DNA of 32,937 nt from a virus. Within the stretch, counting starts at the first letter, position 1. Every line of letters begins with the position of its first letter. The DNA lies in the IMG/VR virus record IMGVR_UViG_3300048573_000150, positions 1 to 32,937 of that record, one strand, 5' to 3'. This document shows, one piece after another, positions 2,538 through 32,937 of the stretch. The notes under the pieces were generated by a model that saw only the letters and a program-made list of their open reading frames with translations, did no database searches and was not told the DNA's origin. Made by a program: the position numbers and the translations under genes.

Positions 2538-5500
2538 TTATATCAACGCCTCACTTGGTACAAACGTTGTCTTTATTGAGAACAGGACAACTTTTGATGT
2601 GCTGTTTTGACTAATTGTATGCTCAAACACATACCCTCTCAGCTGACGTCCATTTTGTAGGGCAAGCTCAATTGTTCTAAGGTATGGGTCTGATGTGTTT
2701 ACGTTAGTCTTATCTCTCAAGTATGCTGACCAATAGTAACCCTCCTTCAATTTAAACAGGGCGGCTGGTATTTCCGAGTTCATCGCAGGGTATGAGCCTG
2801 ACACAGGGGTAGTAACAGAGTCTACGTTAAACACTCCATTAGATCTGATTCCCATAGTTAACAACCTCTTAATTGTGATAGCCGACTCATTCATCACAAA
2901 GTCAATCATCTGTGTTTTTTGATCCGTGTAGAAATTAAGTTCAGCGCCATCATTGTGAGAATAAACTTGACCATTAACATCCCAAGACACATTGATAATA
3001 CCAAGAGTTTCGGCCCACATTGGATTGTAGTCTACCATTGTAATCCATCTATCTCTTAGGTATGAGAATACAACCCCTTCTGTTGAATATACATCAAGTA
3101 GTATTCTAAAACCTATATTTGATGGAAGAGTAACTTCGTTAGTAACTGTTATATCGTAGTCATCAGTTCCAACTAACTCAACGCTAACAACTGTGTTGTA
3201 GGTATCGTTTGTAGCAGATGAACCCGATAATAGAATAGAAGTACCTGGAGGTAAAAGTTCTATTAAATTTTCAGGGCTATTAATAACACTTATTACATAT
3301 CCTGTTTCGTTTATTCGGCAATTGAATATTTGAATTAACTCCTCGTATTTTCTAAAGAAGTTAGTATACTCCATGTTCTGCTCGTCAATCATTGAAATAA
3401 CCTCATAGCTATCAAACGCTAGAGCAATATCGTTTGCCTTTGTAGAAGTATAGTAGTTAAACTTATACTTGCCACTTGATATGTCATTCTGACCATTATT
3501 AGATGTTCTGATAAACGCTCCTGTGTGATAATCAAAATAGTACAAATCACCTTCAATCAACTGCACGCTTCCCGGATGTACCGTTCCAAATAGAGTATCG
3601 TATGGATTAACACCGCCAAATACTTTATCCGTGTAGGCAAGTTGACCTGTTCCATCACCACCTGTAGCGTATGACTTTTGAATGTAAATTGCAGTTTCCT
3701 TTCTATCTTGCAATGTCTTTAATGTATATCCAACCTGCTTTAATCGGTTGATAGACCCAAATGTATCGTCAAGGTATAGACTTGAACCTAACCCCTGAAA
3801 TGCTGAGAGTCCGTTGATATTACTATTCTGAACAAGAGGAAGTGAATGTATTACACTTGATTTAAGATGGCGGCGTTTCGCATTTACGTCGTCGACACCA
3901 AATCTACCACGTCCATGATTATCAGAATTGTAGAAGTCGCTATAGTTAGGGTCCTCAATCCAATACAAAATATGATTAGTATCGTTAGCGTCCTGTTCTC
4001 CAACCGAAACTTCAAATTCAAGGACACCCTTACCCATATCTCTTAAACGACAATATACATCTCCATAATCGATATCAACGATAGCTGGAAGTGTAGCGTC
4101 TTGGTCTTGAGTATTCCCATTGTGATATCTATCTTCCGTATGAGGATTTTCAATAGTAAATTCAGATCCTATTTCGTACCAAATATCATCCTCCTGCTCC
4201 TTTTTAATAGAGTATATCTCTAGAAGCCCACCGTAATCATCAGCTCTTGTTCCAAGTACTGTTTGCCAGTCAAAGTTGTTTACGATAATAGCATCAGATC
4301 CATCGTATCCACCACCGGGTAAAAATTCAAGGACTTCTAGCTCTAAATATTCTGCACAATATCCGTAGTTAGAAGAGCTTCTTCCGAATCTTCCTAACCA
4401 TGTTATATTAGAAGCAGCACCTGGTCCAGGCCATAAAGATATTGGATTAGAATACCTTCTTAAAAATCTAACTATATCACCTTTTTGCGGCGTTTGATTT
4501 ATGGTTGCTCCCTTGTATGTTTTTAAAAAATAACTTTCAAGACTAATCTTTAATCGTGCAGAAGTATATGATTCTGGGTCAACCTCAATTTTAGTAAATC
4601 CTCTCTGTTGGAAGTTTAGGATTGTTTCATCCTTCTTAACCAAAATCTGATAATGGGTAGCCCAATCAGGTGGGTAATGGTTAATAGTTAATTCAGCAGA
4701 AACTGTGTATGGCTTATACCCTGCAACTCCTGCATCAGTTTCCTGTGATGGAAACGGAACATCTAATTCAGCTTGTATAATATTACTAGCCTTGTATTGA
4801 ACACTTCCTGATCTATTAGCTCTATCGTAGTACTGAATACCAAATACCTTTTTAGAACCTGTCTTTAGTGATTTAGTAACCTTGTTTCTTCTGTACCAAT
4901 AGATTCTCTCGTCTACATCAAATGTATTAGTTCCGTCAACAGGACCTACTAGAGCATTATCAATATGAATAATAGTATCAGGGCCATAACCACCACCTGA
5001 ATATGGCGATACAGCAAATGGCTGTGCAAATCCAAGTCCTGGATATGTAGTATTTATGTAGTCACAAAAGTTCTGTTGGAAATCACCAAAATCAGCTATG
5101 TCCGCTGCTGTTATTGTGTAGTATATTGTGTATGATGTTTCCGCGTCATCTAATTCACATAGGCCAAAACTCAACACATCCCCCTCTTCCATTGTAGGCC
5201 AATAGTCAGACGCTCTGAAATCTATATATGAACCGTATGGGTTTTGAGTTGGAAATGGAAGTGGACCAACTGCGAATACAGTTTTATATGAACCTACAAA
5301 TCTTGAATCAATCCCATTTGGATCGTAATAGGAGATTATATGTCCTGCTACGTTAGTTAATTTAACTCCGTTAATATCTACATAGTCATATGGAGTAACA
5401 ACTCGGTTAATCTCCATATCTATATCATTCAACAAATCATAGTCAGTATAGTAGTCACCATACACAATACTATTATTCGAAAGAATCTCTTGACATTTAG

Positions 5501-8602: not shown

Positions 8603-8725
8603 TTATTTTTTTAACTCATTAAACGCTTGTAAAACAACTTCAACATCTTTCAGGCTATATACTCCCTTTAATGTTGCTGCATTTAATGCTTGTTCAATAA
8701 TTTCAATTGCTTTTTCTTTTTCCAT
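8603..8725 (-). CDS. Small conserved phage protein, 40 aa
   Basis: A 40-aa ORF starts at an ATG overlapping the stop of the 354-aa fibre gene by one base (TAATG arrangement) and ends 11 nt before the next gene. It begins MEKEKAIEIIEQALNAA and continues TLKGVYSLKDVEVVLQAF, a compact two-helix protein. Short proteins of this type (AIEIIEQALN...KGxYxLxDVxxVLxA) are common beside fibre genes in Bacteroidota phages. Their function is not known to me. The tight coupling and phase agreement support a real gene. Confidence 0.7.
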   Translation of the reverse strand: MEKEKAIEIIEQALNAATLKGVYSLKDVEVVLQAFNELKK

Positions 8726-9789
8726 TACGCTAGCAAAACTTTTTGTGCTACTCCATTAATTATTACAGTCCATGTTTTAGTAGAAGATGTTGTTGTTTCT
8801 GTAGTAACAGCTCCGGAATTATCATCAGTAGATCCTACTACAAATTGATTGTTTCCAGTTGCGAACGCCCCTATTCCTAAAATAACACATCCAGAATATC
8901 CTGAGGTCGCTGCTTGATTACCAATTACTGTGTTCCTAGATCCAGAAGTTTCGTTAGATAGCGAATTATAACCTATAGAAACATTATCAGAACCTGTTAT
9001 ATTAGAATTCATGCTTCTTGACCCTATGGCTGTGTTTCTAGAGGCTGTATTTGCTTGTAATGCGCCTGATCCTACAGCTGTGTTTTGAGATGCTGAGGTA
9101 TTTGCACTTAAAGTGTTTCTACCTATTGCGGTATTGTCGAAACCAGATGTGTTAACTTGTAATCCAAATTGACCAAAACTTGTATTAGAATTAACGTTGT
9201 TGGCTCCGTTATTCCAAATGGTTTGATTAGTATTATTATACTCTAAGTGCGGTATTTGAGTTTGATAAATCGGCACGTTAATAACACCACTAACTAATGT
9301 AGAAGCTCCACCTGTACCTGTAGTTGTTAAAGTATTAGTAGTTCCAGAAGTTCCTTGAGGACCTTGAGGACCAGTTGGGCCTTGAGGGCCTTGAGGACCA
9401 ACAGCTCCTTGTGAAGCAAGTAGGGCCCAATGTGTAGTATCTAAATCAGGAGTAGTAGTTCCTGATGTAGCAAGAATACAGAACCATGACGCTCCATCAT
9501 AACCAACTGCATCGTCAGCAACATAAGATGTTCCTGAAACCCAAGAGCCTTGCCAATTCAAACCAGCAGGACCAACAGGACCCGGAGGGCCAACAGGACC
9601 CTGAATACCCTCAGGGCCAGCAGGACCTGGAGGTAATATTTCCGCAAAATTATCAACACTGATAATATTACCAGAGTTTGGACTATCTACATCTACAATG
9701 TTTAAATACGTATCTGCTGTATTTGAGATAGTATCTTTTTGAATTCCAGCGGCGTCCTTTCTTAGGTAGAACCAATTTTTAATAGGCAT
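8725..9789 (-). CDS. Collagen-like tail fibre with carbohydrate-binding-like module and YadA-head-like repeats, 354 aa
   Basis: Domain order: an N-terminal cap (to about 52); a Gly-X-Y collagen segment (about 53-77); a tryptophan-rich module (WQGSWVSGTSY ... YDGASWFC ... THWALL, about 80-127) like chitin/cellulose-binding CBM5/12 folds; a second Gly-X-Y segment (about 131-147); then a C-terminal stretch with repeated NTAIG, NTAVG, NVSIG and NTVIG units. The last pattern is that of trimeric YadA-type adhesin heads. Collagen triple helix plus trimeric head implies a trimeric fibre for receptor binding. It starts 11 nt after the larger collagen-like gene, with which it shares the Trp module. Confidence 0.75.
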   Translation of the reverse strand: MPIKNWFYLRKDAAGIQKDTISNTADTYLNIVDVDSPNSGNIISVDNFAEILPPGPAGPEGIQGPVGPPGPVGPAGLNWQGSWVSGTSYVADDAVGYDGASWFCILATSGTTTPDLDTTHWALLASQGAVGPQGPQGPTGPQGPQGTSGTTNTLTTTGTGGASTLVSGVINVPIYQTQIPHLEYNNTNQTIWNNGANNVNSNTSFGQFGLQVNTSGFDNTAIGRNTLSANTSASQNTAVGSGALQANTASRNTAIGSRSMNSNITGSDNVSIGYNSLSNETSGSRNTVIGNQAATSGYSGCVILGIGAFATGNNQFVVGSTDDNSGAVTTETTTSSTKTWTVIINGVAQKVLLA

Positions 9790-9800
9790 GTTTTTATTTT

Positions 9801-11921
9801 TTAAGTGGTTAATTCGAATCCAATGAATATATAGTTTGTAGGCATTCCACCCCCTCCATTACGAACAAATGGAGTTACATAAACGTCTTGTGTAAAATCA
9901 ATAACCCCTGAATATGAGTCAGTAAATGGACTGTTTTGAAAAACATTTATAGCATTAGTATTACTAATAATATAAAGTGTTGATAATAAAGTTCCAGCTA
10001 TATTACTGCCATTTGCAATTAATACAGCTAGTACATTTCCTGTTAAAACAGGAGTAGGACTATTACTTATAACAACTCCAAGGTCTAAATAATTAACATT
10101 ACTTGTCTTTATTACGGAGAATCTAATATTAACTACATCTCCTCCTGTTAATGTACTTGCAGGAATAGTGTACTGAGAGAGTGATTGATACCCAAAACCT
10201 GATACTGTTCCTCCAGTATATTCTACAGCTGAAATTTTATACACTCCAACTCCAGGAGTACCTTGAGGGCCTGTTGCTCCAATAGGTCCTTGAGGACCTA
10301 CTGGACCCTGTGGGCCTTCGGGACCTGTAGCTCCATCAACGCCAGCAGGACCTATAGGACCCTGAGTACCTGGTATACCTGAGCTAGATAGAGGTGTCCA
10401 GTGTGTTGGGTCAAAGAAAGGTGGGGTTATTGATGTTATTGGTCCGTCAAAACAAACATACGAAACCCAACCGGTTCCGCCAGTAGAGTCAAGAGTAACA
10501 CTATATGTAGGATATTCCGTTCCTGACTGCCAATACCCCTCCCAAGTTAATCCAGCAGGAACAGGGGGACCCATTGGACCTTCAGGACCTTGCGGACCTG
10601 TTGCTCCTGTCTCTCCATTCTCTCCAGCTGAACCAGCAGGACCTTCAGGACCTTGTGGGCCAACAGGACCTTCAGGACCAACGATTGAAGGTATTGCTTC
10701 AACTTGAGCTAACAGCTCTAAATATGAGTTGTATAAATCTTCAAAGGCAGGAGTTCCTGTTTGAGATGCATTATCAATCCATTGTGGATTAGTTGTGTTT
10801 CCGCAGCAGTTACAATCACACTCAGTACCACTTGCGCTTAACAACTCAACCATTTGATTGTAGTAGCTTTCGTATTCAGCTTGATTACCACATGCTTGTG
10901 CCTCTTTTGCTAGAGGGTAAAGAAGCGCAATACCTTCTGCGTATTTAGTGTATGGACTTGTGCTTCCGCAATTTAAAGCATCCATATGCTTTGTATAAAG
11001 AGCTTGAACACAATCATTTAAATTGCATAAGGTTCCAACACACGTCACTACAAATTCAGTAGATGAATTTAAACTAACTGATAGTTCCAAATCATCATCT
11101 TGAGTCTTTGTTAATGTAGCGGCTACGGATTTAGTCCATGTACCTGTAGCTAATTCCGTTAATGTTAAAATGTATAGACCTGTAGATTGAGGGTTGGTCG
11201 CAGGAGTTGGATATAATCCACTAGGGTAGTATGCTGTTAAGTTGTGTGACGAAACTGTAAAATCTAAATAGTCGGTAGTATCTTCAAAAGTAATTGAACC
11301 AAATTGTGATGATTGACAATCGTATGTAGCTGTTACAGACGCAACAGGAAGAGTACATCCGCTGTATGTGTAATCTAAGTTGACCTGATCGCTTCCGTTG
11401 TAAGTAAAGGTAGCGACACCAGCTTCTGTTGTAAGAGCTGCTGAAATAGCGATAACCGTATCTGACCCGCTATTAATTGCACTTACAACCGTTTTACTTC
11501 CATTGTTTCCTGCTCCAGATAATGAAATAAAGAACACATCACCTGCATCAAATAGGTCGGCAATATTAACCCCTGGAAGTGTTACTGTGTTCCCAACACT
11601 TGAGATGTTAACCTCAGCTTGCGTATAGTAGTATTGTGGGCTATATGTCACAGAATACACGCCATTTAAAATATCTCCTGACGCAACAGGTAAATTGTAT
11701 GGACCTGCAACATCAACGCCTGTGCTGATATTAGTTGCAGGGGTAGCAGGATTTGTTATAGAAACAAAAGCAGAACCCGAAGGTCCCGTAATTGTCAAAA
11801 GTCCTTTGATTGAAACAACTGAAGGGCTAACACCTTGCGCTGAATAGGTTGTATTATCTGTTACAGTTACCGTTTTTGTGTCGATGTTGAACGATGTAAC
11901 TACATTGAAATTTAGTGCCAT
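9801..11921 (-). CDS. Large collagen-like fibre / appendage protein, 706 aa
   Basis: I choose the ATG at 11921 ([11 protein letters not shown]). An in-frame upstream ATG adds 16 residues but would place translation inside the terminator at 11.95 kb. The N-terminal 300 residues are beta-rich, Thr/Ser/Val repeats resembling Ig-like domains. A helical stretch follows, ending in a cysteine cluster ECDCNCCGN. Then come Gly-X-Y collagen repeats, a Trp module ([13 protein letters not shown] ... THWTPL) matching that of the smaller fibre, a second collagen segment and a beta-rich C-terminal domain. Probably a trimeric virion appendage for attachment. One Gly-to-Val break (GPPVPAG) ends the first collagen run. 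Confidence 0.75.
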
Positions 11922-11944
11922 AATACGTATACGTTTGTACAAAA

Positions 11945-11979
11945 CTAAAAAAGGCGGAGGAAAATCCAACCGCCCTTTT
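11945..11979 (-). terminator. Intrinsic terminator after the 325-aa gene
   Basis: On the minus strand GGCGG-type arms (11970-11974 with 11953-11957) enclose a 12-nt loop and are followed by a run of T (CCGCCTTTTTTAG). It lies 16 nt beyond the stop of the 325-aa gene and just before the start of the large fibre gene. It would separate the head genes from the fibre genes, or allow partial read-through. Confidence 0.8.
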
Positions 11980-24607: not shown

Positions 24608-24826
24608 ATGATGACACCAAGGAATAAGGCAATACGGCTTGTTAATCAGTTTGGATTAGAGGCGGCTTTCAAAATTGCACACGAAATGACAAACACGCTA
24701 GGTTGGCTAGCGCTAACAGCAGCCACCAAAGAAATGAGCGATGACTACAAGAACGAAAGGTTCTATTGGGATACAGTTAAAGAAATAATACAAAAGGAAC
24801 GCGATGGCATCGGAAAAGATTTATAA
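24608..24826 (+). CDS. Small phage protein of the MTPxEKAxxLxxKF type, 72 aa
   Basis: A 72-aa protein; start at 24608 or at the adjacent ATG 24611 (MTPRNKAIRLVNQFG). It has a helical N-terminus, a middle helix (ALTAATKEMSD) and a YWDTVKEIIQKE ending. This order is shared with the 73-aa protein at 29774 (MTPKEKAKELTDKY ... AIIAVKEMLEE ... YWFKVINEIEKL), so the two are probably paralogs of a family widespread in Bacteroidota phages. Its function is not known. Its end overlaps the primase-helicase start by 23 nt. Confidence 0.7.
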   Translation: MMTPRNKAIRLVNQFGLEAAFKIAHEMTNTLGWLALTAATKEMSDDYKNERFYWDTVKEIIQKERDGIGKDL

Positions 24827-27434
24827 CCTAGAAAATAGAAAGACCTACATCATCAACGCCGATAGACGTGGTGAGAACAGTATGTCCTGTCCTGTATGCT
24901 CCGGCGACAGAAAGAAGAAGAATGTTAAGTGCATGAGCTTCAACACGATAGAAGGTGTTGGACATTGCAACCACTGTAACGCACGCTTTGTACGTAAATC
25001 GGAGGATCAGGAGGTTCAGAGATACACACGCCCTGTACCTACATCCAACCCAACCTCTCTTCCCGATAAGATAGTTAACTGGTTCAAGGAGCGTGGAATC
25101 AATTCATCTACGCTGATTGACTTCAACGTGGAAGCTGGAAGAATGTTCTTCCCACAAGTTGCGCAGGAGAGGAACTGCATTATGTTCAACTACTACCGCG
25201 ATGGAGAGTTAATCAACATCAAGTACCGCGATGCCGAGAAGAACTTCCGACTTGTCAAGGATGCTGAACTGATATTCTACAACATGGATAGCATACAAAG
25301 CGAATACGTTGTAATTACGGAAGGTGAATGTTTTCATCCATCGGCAGAAGTTTTAACTCAATACGGATGGGTTAGATTTGACGAGTTTGAGGCTTTGGAA
25401 AATCCTATGGTGGCTCAATATAAGGATTCTGGAGATATTGAATTTGTAAAGCCAATAGCGTTTATAAGTAAGAACTTTGAAGGTAATTTAATAGAGATGA
25501 AAAACCAACACAGGTTTTATTCCCTTACTACTCCTGAGCATAATATGGTTTATGTAGATCCAAATGGAAATATCTCAAAAAAGAAACATTACGAGGCGTC
25601 TGCTAGATACAGTATTCCGAGAACAGCAAAACATGATGGGTCAGGAATAAATCTTTCCGATGATGAGATTAGATTATGTATTGCGGTAAGTGCCGACTTT
25701 ACTATACGTGAAAAAGGTGATATATACGGATCGTTTAAAAAACAGCGTAAGGTTGAAAGAATAACAGGAATTTTAAATCGACTTGGTATTGAGTATTCAA
25801 CAGGACCTACTAAAGGAGACTACACTTCGTTTTTTATTAGAAGAGGAAATGCTCCTAAGTATCTATTCAAGAAATTTCCTTCAAATTGGATTTTTGAGTC
25901 AACGCAACGTCAGAAGGATTTAATTATTTCAGAAATATTACATTGGGATGGAAATCTTGTTCCTGAAAGAAATCAAATTGAGTACTCATCAAAAGATTAC
26001 GATAACGCTACATTTGTTCAGACGATATCACACCTATGCGGATACTGCTCTACAATTATGTCAAGAAGCAATGAATTTGGTAGCTGGTATAAAGTTTCTA
26101 TACTTTTTGGAAAGCAAACAACATCAAACCAATCTCTTAAAAGAGGAACATTGGAAGTTGAATATAAGGGCGTTGTTAATTGCGTTCAAGTTCCTTCCGG
26201 AATGATACTCGTTAGACAAAATGGATGTATAAGCATATCTGGTAATTGTGACGCAATGGCCTACCATCAGGTTGGAATAACATCTGTTGTTTCAGTTCCT
26301 AACGGAGCGTCAAAAAACAATCGTCTACAGTATGTCGACAATTGCATTGATCGCTTTGAGGATGTTAAGACAATCTACCTTGCGACAGATGATGATGAAC
26401 CTGGCCGCATTCTTCAAGAGGAGCTCGCCAGACGGTTTGGAAAGGACAGGTGTAGGAAGATATCGTTTTTCGGAAAAAAGGACGCTAATGAGCTTCTAAT
26501 GACGGATCCGTTAATGCTGCCTGAAACATTGGAAGCCGCTGAAGAATATCCACTAGAGGGGATCGTAACCATAGATGGAATAGCAGACGACATCTGGAGA
26601 TTAAGACGTGAAGGGTTAAAGCCTGGATGTGATATCTCAATTGACGCATTCAATGAACTACTAACCTTTGTTCCGGGGTATGTTACAGGAGTTACAGGTA
26701 TACCTAACCACGGTAAGTCGGAGTTTCTAGATCAGATAATGGTAGACCTATCGGTTAGGCACGGCTGGAGGTTTGGAATCTTCTCACCGGAGAACTATCC
26801 GCTTCAGCTCCACTTCTCGAAGGTGGCTAGCAAGTTAGTAGGAACGGCGTTTAATGATATGGGGGACCGAGAAATCATAGCCGCCATGAACTACTGCCGT
26901 GACAACTTCTTCTACATAGCCCCTGAGGAGGATAATAGTTTGGACAGCATAATTGAACACGCCAAGAGTCTAGTTAAGAAATATGGAATCAACGCAATCA
27001 TCATCGATGCGTGGAACAAGTTGGAGCATAGTTATCAGACCTCGGAAACCCAACACATCTCCAAGGAGCTAGATAAGTTAATTGACTTCTGTCGTAAGAA
27101 TAGTGTACACGCCTTCGTTGTAGCCCACCCTACCAAGATGTCGCGTGACCCAAAGACACAGCAGTACAATGTCGCCACTCTATACGACATGTCGGGATCG
27201 GCGCATTTCTACAACAAGTGTGACAATGGTATATCGGTATATCGCCACTTCTTTGAGGATGGTGGGTCTATGCCGGAGATCTTTGTACAGAAGGTGAAGT
27301 TCAAACATTGGGGACGTCAGGGAAGTCGCGAGATGCAGTATGATGTTCCAAGCGGTAGATATTATATAGTTGGAAAACTTAACAAAACTTCCTATCTTAG
27401 CACGGAATTTAAACAACAGGAATTTGAGCTATGA
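24804..27434 (+). CDS. Primase-helicase (T7 gp4-like) interrupted by an intein, 876 aa precursor
   Basis: Domain order: zinc-ribbon primase start with C29, C32, C55 and C58 (CPVC ... CNHC); TOPRIM primase core with VVITEGE at 169-175; intein 176-481; TOPRIM continued as CDAMAYHQVG ... ATDDDEPGR; linker; DnaB-type helicase with Walker A GIPNHGKS (632-639), Walker B IIIDAW (D735) and a sensor-like FVVAHPTKM. The mature product after splicing is 570 aa, normal for T7 gp4/Twinkle-like proteins, which unwind DNA and make primers at the fork. The 3' end overlaps the next gene by 4 nt. The extein uses noticeably GC-richer codons than the intein. Confidence 0.92.
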   Translation: MASEKIYNLENRKTYIINADRRGENSMSCPVCSGDRKKKNVKCMSFNTIEGVGHCNHCNARFVRKSEDQEVQRYTRPVPTSNPTSLPDKIVNWFKERGINSSTLIDFNVEAGRMFFPQVAQERNCIMFNYYRDGELINIKYRDAEKNFRLVKDAELIFYNMDSIQSEYVVITEGECFHPSAEVLTQYGWVRFDEFEALENPMVAQYKDSGDIEFVKPIAFISKNFEGNLIEMKNQHRFYSLTTPEHNMVYVDPNGNISKKKHYEASARYSIPRTAKHDGSGINLSDDEIRLCIAVSADFTIREKGDIYGSFKKQRKVERITGILNRLGIEYSTGPTKGDYTSFFIRRGNAPKYLFKKFPSNWIFESTQRQKDLIISEILHWDGNLVPERNQIEYSSKDYDNATFVQTISHLCGYCSTIMSRSNEFGSWYKVSILFGKQTTSNQSLKRGTLEVEYKGVVNCVQVPSGMILVRQNGCISISGNCDAMAYHQVGITSVVSVPNGASKNNRLQYVDNCIDRFEDVKTIYLATDDDEPGRILQEELARRFGKDRCRKISFFGKKDANELLMTDPLMLPETLEAAEEYPLEGIVTIDGIADDIWRLRREGLKPGCDISIDAFNELLTFVPGYVTGVTGIPNHGKSEFLDQIMVDLSVRHGWRFGIFSPENYPLQLHFSKVASKLVGTAFNDMGDREIIAAMNYCRDNFFYIAPEEDNSLDSIIEHAKSLVKKYGINAIIIDAWNKLEHSYQTSETQHISKELDKLIDFCRKNSVHAFVVAHPTKMSRDPKTQQYNVATLYDMSGSAHFYNKCDNGISVYRHFFEDGGSMPEIFVQKVKFKHWGRQGSREMQYDVPSGRYYIVGKLNKTSYLSTEFKQQEFEL
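25329..26246 (+). mobile_element. LAGLIDADG intein within the TOPRIM motif, 306 aa
   Basis: The first residue is Cys176 (CFHPSAEVLTQYGW, block A type). A block B-like region holds TTPEHNMVYV. The C-terminal block is VQVPSGMILVRQNG ... ISISGN followed by +1 Cys482. The usual penultimate His is Gly, a known but less common variant. The central part has two degenerate LAGLIDADG motifs, LCIAVSADF and ISEILHWDG, each keeping its acidic residue, followed by the family-like IEYSSKDYDNATFVQ. Removing it restores TEGE-CDAM, the TOPRIM catalytic motif. AT-rich codons contrast with the flanks, indicating recent arrival. Confidence 0.93.
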
Positions 27435-27964
27435 TATCTGATCTTACATCGTGTGTTAAACCACATCTAATCATTCAGTTTTTGGAAACAATTGTAAACG
27501 GCGAAACCGACACACTACAGTCGGATGCAAGACGCATGCTCGAAGGCATTAACAATACACTTGACATTTCGGATAACCCGGATCAGTTTATAAACATAGC
27601 CCTATCATCTTGTGCGGCTGTGTTCAATACAAGCCCGGAGGAGATTATGTCCAGGAAGAGAAACAGCAATATCATCGATGCGAAGAGGTCATATATGTGG
27701 ATTCTTAAAACCACATTGGGCTGCACGCACCGACTGGTTTCGGAGACGCTAAAGATGCACCATAGCTCAGTCATCCACCACCTGAACACGGTAGAGAACT
27801 ACTTGATGTACAACGCCGACTTCCGCGCCAAGATAAACCAGGTAGTCATAGATCTAAAACAGATTGGCTACCATGTTCCTTCGGAGCAGTTCGTCAAGCA
27901 TGTAAACAAGGCGGAGCAGAAGAAGAGCAAGATCCGTGAGAAGCTAAAGAGAAATAGAGTATAA
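27431..27964 (+). CDS. DnaA domain IV-like DNA-binding protein, 177 aa
   Basis: Residues about 70-125 match the DnaA C-terminal DnaA-box-binding domain: FNTSPEEIMSRKRN, DAKRSYMWILKTTLG, then the signature MHHSSVIHHLNTVENYL, equivalent to DHTTVxHAxxKI. There is no AAA+ ATPase domain; the first 60 residues are an unassigned helical region and the tail is very basic (KKSKIREKLKRNRV). It overlaps the primase-helicase by 4 nt. It may mark the phage origin, recruit the helicase, or compete with host DnaA for its boxes. Domain identity is strong; the role is inferred. Confidence 0.8.
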   Translation: MISDLTSCVKPHLIIQFLETIVNGETDTLQSDARRMLEGINNTLDISDNPDQFINIALSSCAAVFNTSPEEIMSRKRNSNIIDAKRSYMWILKTTLGCTHRLVSETLKMHHSSVIHHLNTVENYLMYNADFRAKINQVVIDLKQIGYHVPSEQFVKHVNKAEQKKSKIREKLKRNRV

Positions 27965-31425: not shown

Positions 31426-31457
31426 TTTGTTTTCCTGTATGATATTTCATACATTTG
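31426..31457 (+). promoter_or_regulatory. Bacteroidota-type promoter of the GIY-YIG/HTH gene
   Basis: TTTG (31426-31429), 20 nt, then TACATTTG (31450-31457), both matching consensus. A second TACATTTG (31470-31477) touches the start codon and is probably not used. The predicted start of transcription is about 15 nt before the ATG. Confidence 0.8.
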
Positions 31458-31477
31458 TATTACATTTAATACATTTG

Positions 31478-32044
31478 ATGATGAAGAATATAATCTACGG
31501 ACTACGAGATCCAAGAAACGATGTCTACCAGTACATAGGCAAAAGCACAGTAGGCGAACAAAGACCTCTACAGCATTTAACTCGCTCTCATTCCCCCTAC
31601 GTTAACGAATGGGTTAAAACACTAGAGGATAATTGGCTGTACCTAAAAATCGACATCATAGAAGAAGTTGAGGACCTAGACAGTTTAGCAATTAGAGAAA
31701 AGTATTGGATCGGATACTACCACGATATTAACCCTAGTCTTTTAAATATACAACTGCTTCCTGATGAAATAGTAGAAACAAGGTCAGACCAGGACGGTAA
31801 AGACTTTGAAGAACTGTTCAGAGTCATAAGTAACATAGGGAGCATAGTCAAAAAAGAACGTATATATAGAAAGATAACCCAATCTGATATGGCAAAGAGA
31901 ATGGGGACGTCTAGATCCTCATTAGTGCTACTTGAACAGGGACGAAATGTAGGTATGAACATATTAATAAAATCAGTATTAGCTCTCAAAGAAGCCGAAA
32001 TCAAAACAAAGATGTTGAGCCAAAGGGTTAGGTATAAAGAGTAG
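31478..32044 (+). CDS. GIY-YIG nuclease fused to an XRE helix-turn-helix, 188 aa
   Basis: I choose the ATG pair at 31478/31481 (MMKNIIYGLRDP), because upstream in-frame sequence lies in the promoter. Numbering from the second Met: GIY-like IIYGLRD (4-10), YIG (18-20), conserved Arg nearby (R28) and the catalytic-type Glu in REKYWIGYY (E73). A linker is followed by an XRE helix-turn-helix, ITQSDMAKRMGTSRSSLVLLEQG (132-154, split here by structure). GIY-YIG domains cut DNA; XRE domains usually repress promoters. The fusion and the palindrome at its promoter suggest a self-regulating DNA-binding nuclease or a nuclease-derived regulator. Confidence 0.8.
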   Translation: MMKNIIYGLRDPRNDVYQYIGKSTVGEQRPLQHLTRSHSPYVNEWVKTLEDNWLYLKIDIIEEVEDLDSLAIREKYWIGYYHDINPSLLNIQLLPDEIVETRSDQDGKDFEELFRVISNIGSIVKKERIYRKITQSDMAKRMGTSRSSLVLLEQGRNVGMNILIKSVLALKEAEIKTKMLSQRVRYKE

Positions 32045-32050
32045 GCCTCT

Positions 32051-32063
32051 CCCTTATAAAGGG
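32051..32063 (+). terminator. Short hairpin after the GIY-YIG/HTH gene
   Basis: CCCTT-ATA-AAGGG begins 7 nt after the stop codon. There is no U tract, so as an intrinsic terminator it is weak. Confidence 0.35.
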
Positions 32064-32125
32064 CATAGCCGCCTCGTCTTATCCCCCTAATGGGACCTTA
32101 TGAGTTATCCGATATAAGCGGACAA

Positions 32126-32156
32126 CTGTCGCAAAAGTCTACTATACTTGCGACAG
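32126..32156. repeat. Perfect 9-bp inverted repeat
   Basis: CTGTCGCAA (32126-32134) and TTGCGACAG (32148-32156) enclose 13 nt; an inner AGT/ACT pair can extend it. With no U tract on either side it looks more like a protein- or recombinase-binding site than a terminator. It lies at the start of the noncoding end region. Confidence 0.75.
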
Positions 32157-32159
32157 CCA

Positions 32160-32205
32160 TAGTGGAAAATAATCCCCAGAATCAGCCCTTTAGTGGAAAA
32201 TAATC
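32160..32205. repeat. Direct repeat of 15 bp, two copies
   Basis: TAGTGGAAAATAATC occurs exactly at 32160-32174 and 32191-32205, 31 bp apart (about three helical turns), next to the inverted repeat. Such spacing is usual for binding sites of a protein on one face of DNA. Confidence 0.8.
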
Positions 32206-32455
32206 AACGCTAATTCGGAATATAGCCGAACTAATGCATGAATTTTTACAAAAACTGCATGCACCATTTGTCAAGTTTATTGCTCAAAAAACTGGACATC
32301 ACCTTCCCGGTACACCATATCCACACAGCAATACATAAGACCCACCTACACCCAAAAGGACCATCAGGTCGACTACATCAAGATGGTTAGTAGATGTAAC
32401 CACCTGGATAGTCACACCACCCGGATCAATCGGAAACAGCCCTTCCACTTTAGAG
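32206..32455. other. Noncoding stretch with short palindromes, no convincing gene
   Basis: The stretch has a GCATG-rich patch (TGCATG at about 32234, GCATGCA at about 32264), an inverted repeat TGGTTA/TAACCA (32384-32389 with 32397-32402) and a single DnaA-box-like 9-mer ATATCCACA (32317-32325, one mismatch to TTATCCACA). A 61-codon minus-strand ORF (32299-32484) has no family resemblance or start signal. Nothing else is supported. Confidence 0.5.
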
Positions 32456-32568
32456 TGTTCCACAAGCGTTCCACAAGCTAACACATTGACAATCAGTTAC
32501 ATGAGTTTTGTTCCACGTGGAACAGAGGTGCGTTTCACGTGAAACAGCCTGTCATTTTGTGTGGAACA
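32456..32568. promoter_or_regulatory. Cluster of parS-like palindromes and half-sites
   Basis: TGTTCCACGTGGAACA (32509-32524) is a perfect 16-bp palindrome fitting TGTTnCACGTGnAACA, the widespread chromosomal ParB-binding (parS) consensus. CGTTTCACGTGAAACA (32531-32546) fits at 15 of 16 positions. Their centres are 22 bp apart, two helical turns. Flanking half-sites are GTTCCAC at 32457 and 32468, as a tandem GTTCCACAAGC repeat, and GTGGAACA at 32561-32568. No ParA or ParB gene is in the window. An alternative is an operator for another dimeric regulator. Confidence 0.75.
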
Positions 32569-32587
32569 TACTATTTAGGAAAGAGGG

Positions 32588-32627
32588 AGAACATAGTGTG
32601 ATTTGAGAAAAGTACAGAACATAGTGT
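32588..32627. repeat. Direct repeat AGAACATAGTGT, two copies
   Basis: The 12-mer occurs at 32588-32599 and 32616-32627, 28 bp apart. The first copy runs into ATAGTGTGATT, the same 11-mer found in the operator candidate at 31412-31422, so the GIY-YIG/HTH protein may bind here too. Confidence 0.65.
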
Positions 32628-32694
32628 AAAGGGGGTCTATATACCATATTTCACCGCGTGTGTGCTTCCAAAGTGCTTTTTTGCGAAAGGGGTG

Positions 32695-32937
32695 GCTATT
32701 TAGATTGATTCTAAATTACGAAAACACTTGCAAAAGTAAACTATTTTTTGTAGTACGAAAATTTTACAGCCAATGCAATAGGCAGCAGCTATTTAGAATG
32801 GATCTAAATAAGCTAAGGGCTTGGATATATCAATTATATTTTGTACTACGAAATTTCCATGAGAAAAACAAATGCATTGCGCTGTTTAGAATCTGTATAA
32901 ATAAGCAGCAAATTTGGATATGTAAATTTTATTCCGT
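32695..32937. repeat. Three imperfect 93-bp tandem repeats, last one cut
   Basis: Units begin at 32695, 32788 and 32881 (GCTATTTAGA, GCTATTTAGA, GCTGTTTAGA). Each holds TTTAGA-N5-TCTAAA-like palindromes at 32699, 32792 and 32885, exactly 93 bp apart (the third is degenerate, TATAAA). Units 1 and 2 also share TTTTGTAsTACGAAA around 32750 and 32843. The third unit runs off the window. The repeats are A/T-rich, contain no ORF and resemble iteron or origin repeats. Confidence 0.8.

Follow-up and report, generated by a model that had tools for sequence, protein, structure and literature searches.

The usual view is that phages either bring their own partition genes or need none. The locus described here raises the question of why a phage lacking recognisable par genes should carry a cluster of parS-like sites in noncoding DNA. 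The window, which is the whole stretch of DNA analysed, is an entire virus record; it is 32,937 bases long and classed as a linear fragment. Our preferred answer, to which we assign a probability of roughly 0.6, is that these are true chromosome-type parS sites that selection maintains in a ParB-less phage, and that host ParB binds them, which would tie phage genomes to host segregation or positioning.

The parS array and its noncoding interval

The array and the elements beside it are as follows.

32045..32937, no strand: noncoding control interval holding the parS array, cut by the contig end; no conserved ORF; syntenic noncoding interval in nine records
32457..32463, plus strand: parS half-site GTTCCAC, conserved in relative G005 at 1321
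32468..32474, plus strand: parS half-site GTTCCAC, 11 bp after the first half-site, conserved in G005 at 1332
32509..32524, no strand: parS site 1, TGTTCCACGTGGAACA, a perfect palindrome and exact fit to GTTYCACGTGRAAC, identical and syntenic in G005 and L286
32531..32546, no strand: parS site 2, CGTTTCACGTGAAACA, exact 14-bp core, conserved in G005 and L286
32561..32567, minus strand: inverted parS half-site GTGGAAC, conserved in G005 at 1435
32618..32695, no strand: noncoding block AACATAGTGTAAAGGGGGTCTATATACCAT...TTTTTTGCGAAAGGGGTG, lying downstream of the first parS sites and conserved in alignments of G000/G005 and of G020/G010/G009/G007
32699..32715, no strand: phage-specific 17-bp palindrome TTTAGATTGATTCTAAA, also found between parS subclusters in most parS-bearing relatives
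32792..32808, no strand: second copy of the palindrome, TTTAGAATGGATCTAAA, at a repeat spacing of 93 bp

Both full sites fit the degenerate 14-bp core GTTYCACGTGRAAC perfectly and lie 22 bp apart, start to start; the outer half-sites (GTTCCAC on the left, GTGGAAC on the right) form an inverted repeat that brackets them. The initial annotation had reported matches of 16/16 and 15/16, which stands for the degenerate consensus TGTTNCACGTGNAACA (16/16) but not for the single-sequence consensus TGTTTCACGTGAAACA, against which 2 and 1 mismatches are counted. It had also listed four flanking half-sites; half-sites do flank the pair, but the exact count is three, against an expectation of 0.22 around the cluster based on the remainder of the record. 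That such a cluster is not expected by chance was borne out, as no perfect site appeared in 300 third-order Markov windows, and a reversed-pattern control gave 0 in all records. The proposed placement of the sites on the same helical face is not conserved: two records space neighbouring sites by 22 bp, but in others the distances are 33, 31, 54, 101 and 107 bp. With these small corrections to half-site count and helical phase, the parS-like cluster in a phage noncoding region is confirmed.

The contig end cuts the cluster in the window. L286, a 94% relative, has the identical 22-bp pair and, about 990 bp beyond it, another pair with a spacing of 69 bp. This other pair would fall at approximately 33.5 kb in window coordinates, past the window end. 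Within the conserved block at 32618-32695, for which no Rfam match was found, GGGGGTCTATATACC and TTTTTTGCGAAAGGGGTG are kept in relatives whose remaining noncoding sequence differs. The stretch 32695-32906 consists of three repeats, 93 bp apart, that carry the palindrome TTTAGANNNNNTCTAAA, the third copy, at about 32885, being degenerate. This palindrome occurs in most parS-bearing relatives, recurs only within this noncoding interval, and was not found at the Flavobacterium parS locus; it is perhaps a phage operator or an origin iteron. Exact DnaA boxes (TTATCCACA) are absent from the window and from G005.

Related phages and Bacteroidota chromosomes

Twenty-three terminase relatives of the window were fetched. 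The interval after the early genes is spanned by nine records, namely the window, G005, G007, G009, G010, G015, G018, G020 and L132/L286 (= G055, reached by two separate routes). In each of the nine, even at terminase identities as low as 84%, this noncoding interval holds 2-5 perfect sites; the records come from several samples and are syntenic. Because G007 and G009 hardly differ over the interval, the independent parS-bearing records number about eight rather than nine. Conservation of the palindromes in related phages, which the initial annotation had named as a check, is therefore seen in every record that spans the locus, and palindromes of 14-16 bp with the core GTTYCACGTGRAAC, as in chromosome-type parS, number two in the window and 2-5 in its eight relatives. 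G005 retains both full sites and the half-site arrangement of the window, with an 11-bp difference in the spacer that separates the full sites. When divergent segments were aligned six ways, the 14-bp site was the sole alignable block and shifted among the same Y/R variants. Conservation of this kind is what a binding site under selection would show.

Some records have no sites. G013, G021 and the short records end before the interval. G017 (84% terL identity) has different genes after its homologue of g79, and the distant L281 (47% amidoligase identity) is likewise devoid of sites, while no perfect site was found in the cultured distant relatives elemo, phi38:1, phi46:3 and Gundel_1. The parS trait is thus not essential to the wider lineage.

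The comparison with chromosomal parS in Bacteroidota, also advised earlier, gave a match. A Flavobacterium ParB sequence was used as bait solely to reach genomes. All 19 Flavobacterium genomes carry 2-8 perfect sites, every one of them within a single cluster of about 2 kb, and 57 of 60 Bacteroidota genomes contain perfect cores (1-9 per genome). The Y/R variants found in the phages are exactly those used by Bacteroidota chromosomes. In the five Flavobacterium loci that were read, the cluster flanks mnmG/gidA and adjoins ybeY (gene names from reading translations); no parS was found within 10 kb of parB in 80 Flavobacterium loci, the sites being at mnmG instead. The phage and chromosomal clusters therefore share the 14-bp core and its variants, but the phage interval contains neither mnmG, ybeY nor any other host gene. 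The phage sites have the same sequence as those on the chromosomes of the likely host group.

The window genes are those of a short-tailed phage of Bacteroidota type. Its terminase and portal match phrog_6681 and phrog_6547, and other genes encode a DUF3127-type single-strand binding protein, a replication protein, a TOPRIM primase/helicase and a DnaA domain IV protein:

27431-27964: DnaA domain IV protein

The terminase is a distant match to podoviruses of flavobacteria, not to phi29, and its nearest named relatives (21-27% identity) belong to phages of Flavobacterium, Cellulophaga, Tenacibaculum and Maribacter. From these distant relatives we infer a Bacteroidota-type bacterium as host. Megablast of the window against phage records gave no match, and a terL scan of genome contigs found no prophage relative in sequenced genomes.

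Several other features of the window were observed. Within the primase/helicase gene (24804-27434), about 300 residues (around residues 175-483) are inserted in frame and resemble an intein, with a Cys start and an Asn-Cys end; the span matches the PHROG families PhoH-like protein and ribonucleotide reductase and is absent in relatives. Two proteins, encoded at 8725-9789 and 9801-11969, have collagen-like GPxGPx repeats and are probably fibres. The protein encoded at 31427-32044 is small and combines a GIY-YIG-like part with an HTH_3-like part. Of the relatives examined, G018 alone has it, in the opposite orientation, which suggests a mobile gene.

Reader of the sites and possible benefit

The statement that no par genes are in the window is correct, as no ParB_N domain (PF02195) was detected in the record. 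PF02195 was also absent from 13 relatives, even at E<=1, and among 39 further proteins, taken from G005, G020 and the window, a Pfam scan recognised no ParA, ParB or integrase. The initial annotation had asked for a search of the rest of the phage genome for parB; none turned up in relatives that jointly cover almost the whole genome, a composite of G005 (56.8 kb), L288 (7.7 kb, same sample) and the window rather than one closed genome. Of the two readers that had been suggested, a phage ParB encoded outside the window was accordingly rejected, no PF02195 having been found in the window or in 13 relatives, while host ParB is favoured. Since no phage ParB was found and the variants are the same as in host chromosomal parS, host ParB is the most economical reader, and the host-type sites are most likely read by it. 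The parS interpretation is thus supported as far as sequence goes, by the kept palindromes, the chromosomal match and the absence of a recognisable parB.

ParB-CTP recognises parS, closes as a clamp, spreads along the DNA and stimulates ParA (PMC12704722). In the proposed mechanism, CTP-loaded host ParB would bind the phage array and spread over phage DNA, after which host ParA, possibly with SMC, would link extrachromosomal phage genomes to the segregation and positioning machinery of the host. Few-copy or paused phage genomes could then persist and be shared between daughter cells; alternatively, the benefit might lie in placing replicating phage genomes beside the nucleoid. Partition or positioning as the benefit is more speculative than the identity of the reader, and no integrase, repressor or plasmid-type maintenance gene that would point independently to a carrier state was recognised.

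Known systems provide useful comparisons. In phi29, host Spo0J (ParB) is reported to drive entrapment in spores (Meijer et al. 2005, as cited in PMC9437464). A pattern search of the phi29 genome found four perfect parS cores and one with one mismatch, and no ParB gene is among its annotated features. Both phages possess several host-type sites and no recognised ParB gene; an action of host ParB on the DNA is reported for phi29 (PMC9437464) and suggested by the sites here. However, phi29 sites are spread over about 8 kb, mostly inside genes, whereas those of the window form a tight noncoding array. The hosts of phi29 sporulate and Bacteroidota do not, and the phages belong to different families, as the window terminase matches phrog_6681 rather than placing the phage in the phi29 family (Salasmaviridae). 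Phage-plasmids such as P1, N15 and cyanophage Mic1 (PMC7156551) also carry partition sites on phage DNA, but they encode ParA/ParB themselves and rely on site sequences of their own. Here the searches revealed no par gene, neither the ParB nor the ParA that a P1/N15-type element would encode.

The parS mimics of SGI1, which were shown experimentally to bind the ParB of the helper IncC plasmid and to stabilise SGI1 (PMC10954446), are another case of a mobile element with parS copies read by the ParB of a different replicon. SGI1 borrows a plasmid ParABS system, in contrast to the sites described here, which match in sequence the system of the host chromosome. SGI1 mimics can also destabilise the replicon whose ParB they use (PMC10954446). 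This is relevant to a decoy function, in which the 2-5 sites per genome, multiplied by phage replication, would titrate host ParB off the chromosome and stall segregation and division. Such a function would suit a phage that has a number of strong sites in each genome (similar to the 2-8 of the host), no recognised partition genes of its own and, in the Pfam scan, no sign of lysogeny genes. A decoy would not need a single conserved control locus, however, and we consider this explanation unlikely. The SGI1 mimics do both, stabilising their element and displacing the plasmid; sequence can therefore hardly tell titration from partition, and by analogy they may be two sides of one device.

A purely local effect, in which host ParB clamps and any loaded SMC control phage transcription, the start of replication or compaction and have no role in segregation, is in our view also unlikely. 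It retains some weight because the control interval holds a second conserved palindrome, TTTAGANNNNNTCTAAA, in 93-bp repeats, together with conserved blocks. Against it, promoter-like matches at the locus are no commoner than in shuffles, and GC skew tracks gene strand, which makes it uninformative and marks no origin at the locus.

Still less probable is that the palindrome is the operator of a phage-encoded regulator and resembles parS by coincidence, without any ParB. The locus is control DNA, and the DnaA domain IV and GIY-YIG/HTH proteins are encoded nearby. However, host chromosomal parS has this 14-bp core and tolerates the same variants, and similar sites occur in parallel in many unrelated phages (see below). 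The GIY-YIG/HTH neighbour was rejected as the binder since it is absent from most parS-bearing relatives examined; among the region-spanning records, it is present only in the window and G018 and the sites are present in all. Chance, assembly artefact or host contamination might be suspected in a metagenomic contig with sites near its end, but can practically be dismissed given nine syntenic records from several samples, 0 sites in Markov simulations, and the absence, among the viral parS-pair loci listed (at least 120), of the mnmG or ybeY neighbours, or the parS neighbourhood, that carry-over of host chromosome would bring.

Binding by host ParB thus remains the preferred reading. The phage has perfect parS copies, but a ParB gene was detected neither in it nor in its relatives, so it probably borrows the segregation machinery of its host, as unrelated phages also seem to do.

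Paired parS sites in other viruses

When 2.9 million viral contigs were scanned for pairs of cores no more than about 60 bp apart, paired perfect parS turned up in at least 120 viral stretches, in at least 76 nucleotide clusters, versus 0 for a control palindrome with rearranged core bases. Among the matches listed, 212 of 315 sites (67%) lie outside ORFs, which make up all but about 21% of bases, and the neighbouring proteins include many terminases, polymerases and capsid proteins, some of them phi29-like. A match to flavobacterial ParB was found in one of the at least 120 stretches listed. Of the 40 longest records among these matches, 36 have no ParB_N at E<=0.001 and 38 have none above the family cut-off; since most parS-pair records are fragmentary, not finding ParB in a given one counts as weak evidence. 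A 96-kb viral record (L113, G044) contains twelve perfect parS cores and no ParB_N match.

On this basis we lean slightly towards the view that host-type parS arrays without ParB are a widespread, independently acquired phage strategy, by which the centromere machinery of non-sporulating hosts is ridden or disturbed. It would span dozens of unrelated tailed phages and perhaps also small ssDNA phages. Two perfect cores are present in Dulem virus 194 (L279, PP511345.1; Microviridae), at record positions 3244 and 3961, which is surprising in an ssDNA phage genome as small as 5.4 kb.

A literature search of open-licence papers found no survey of ParB-less parS phages and nothing on the use of host ParB by prophages. 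Host ParB use had already been reported for phi29, and the borrowing of a foreign ParB was known from SGI1; what is new is that phages with Bacteroidota-infecting relatives hold the sites in a tight noncoding array, and that the pattern recurs more widely, possibly far beyond what was known. A conserved phage locus consisting of the host centromere sequence would imply that ParB, a core CTPase that is well understood, is routinely exploited by viruses. It might account for carrier states in phages without integrase or partition genes, and might exert selection pressure on ParB/parS specificity. In addition, parS arrays, as a simple sequence signature, could help to find such phages and to recognise their host groups.

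Leads among cultured phages were obtained by short-query blastn, with weak E-values, followed by a pattern search in 12 records. One or two perfect cores are present in Glutamicibacter phage Voltaire (L273), Athos (L274), Racecar (L275) and Joann (L276), cultured phages of other phyla that are possible experimental models; in Voltaire, the sites form a noncoding pair 19 bp apart.
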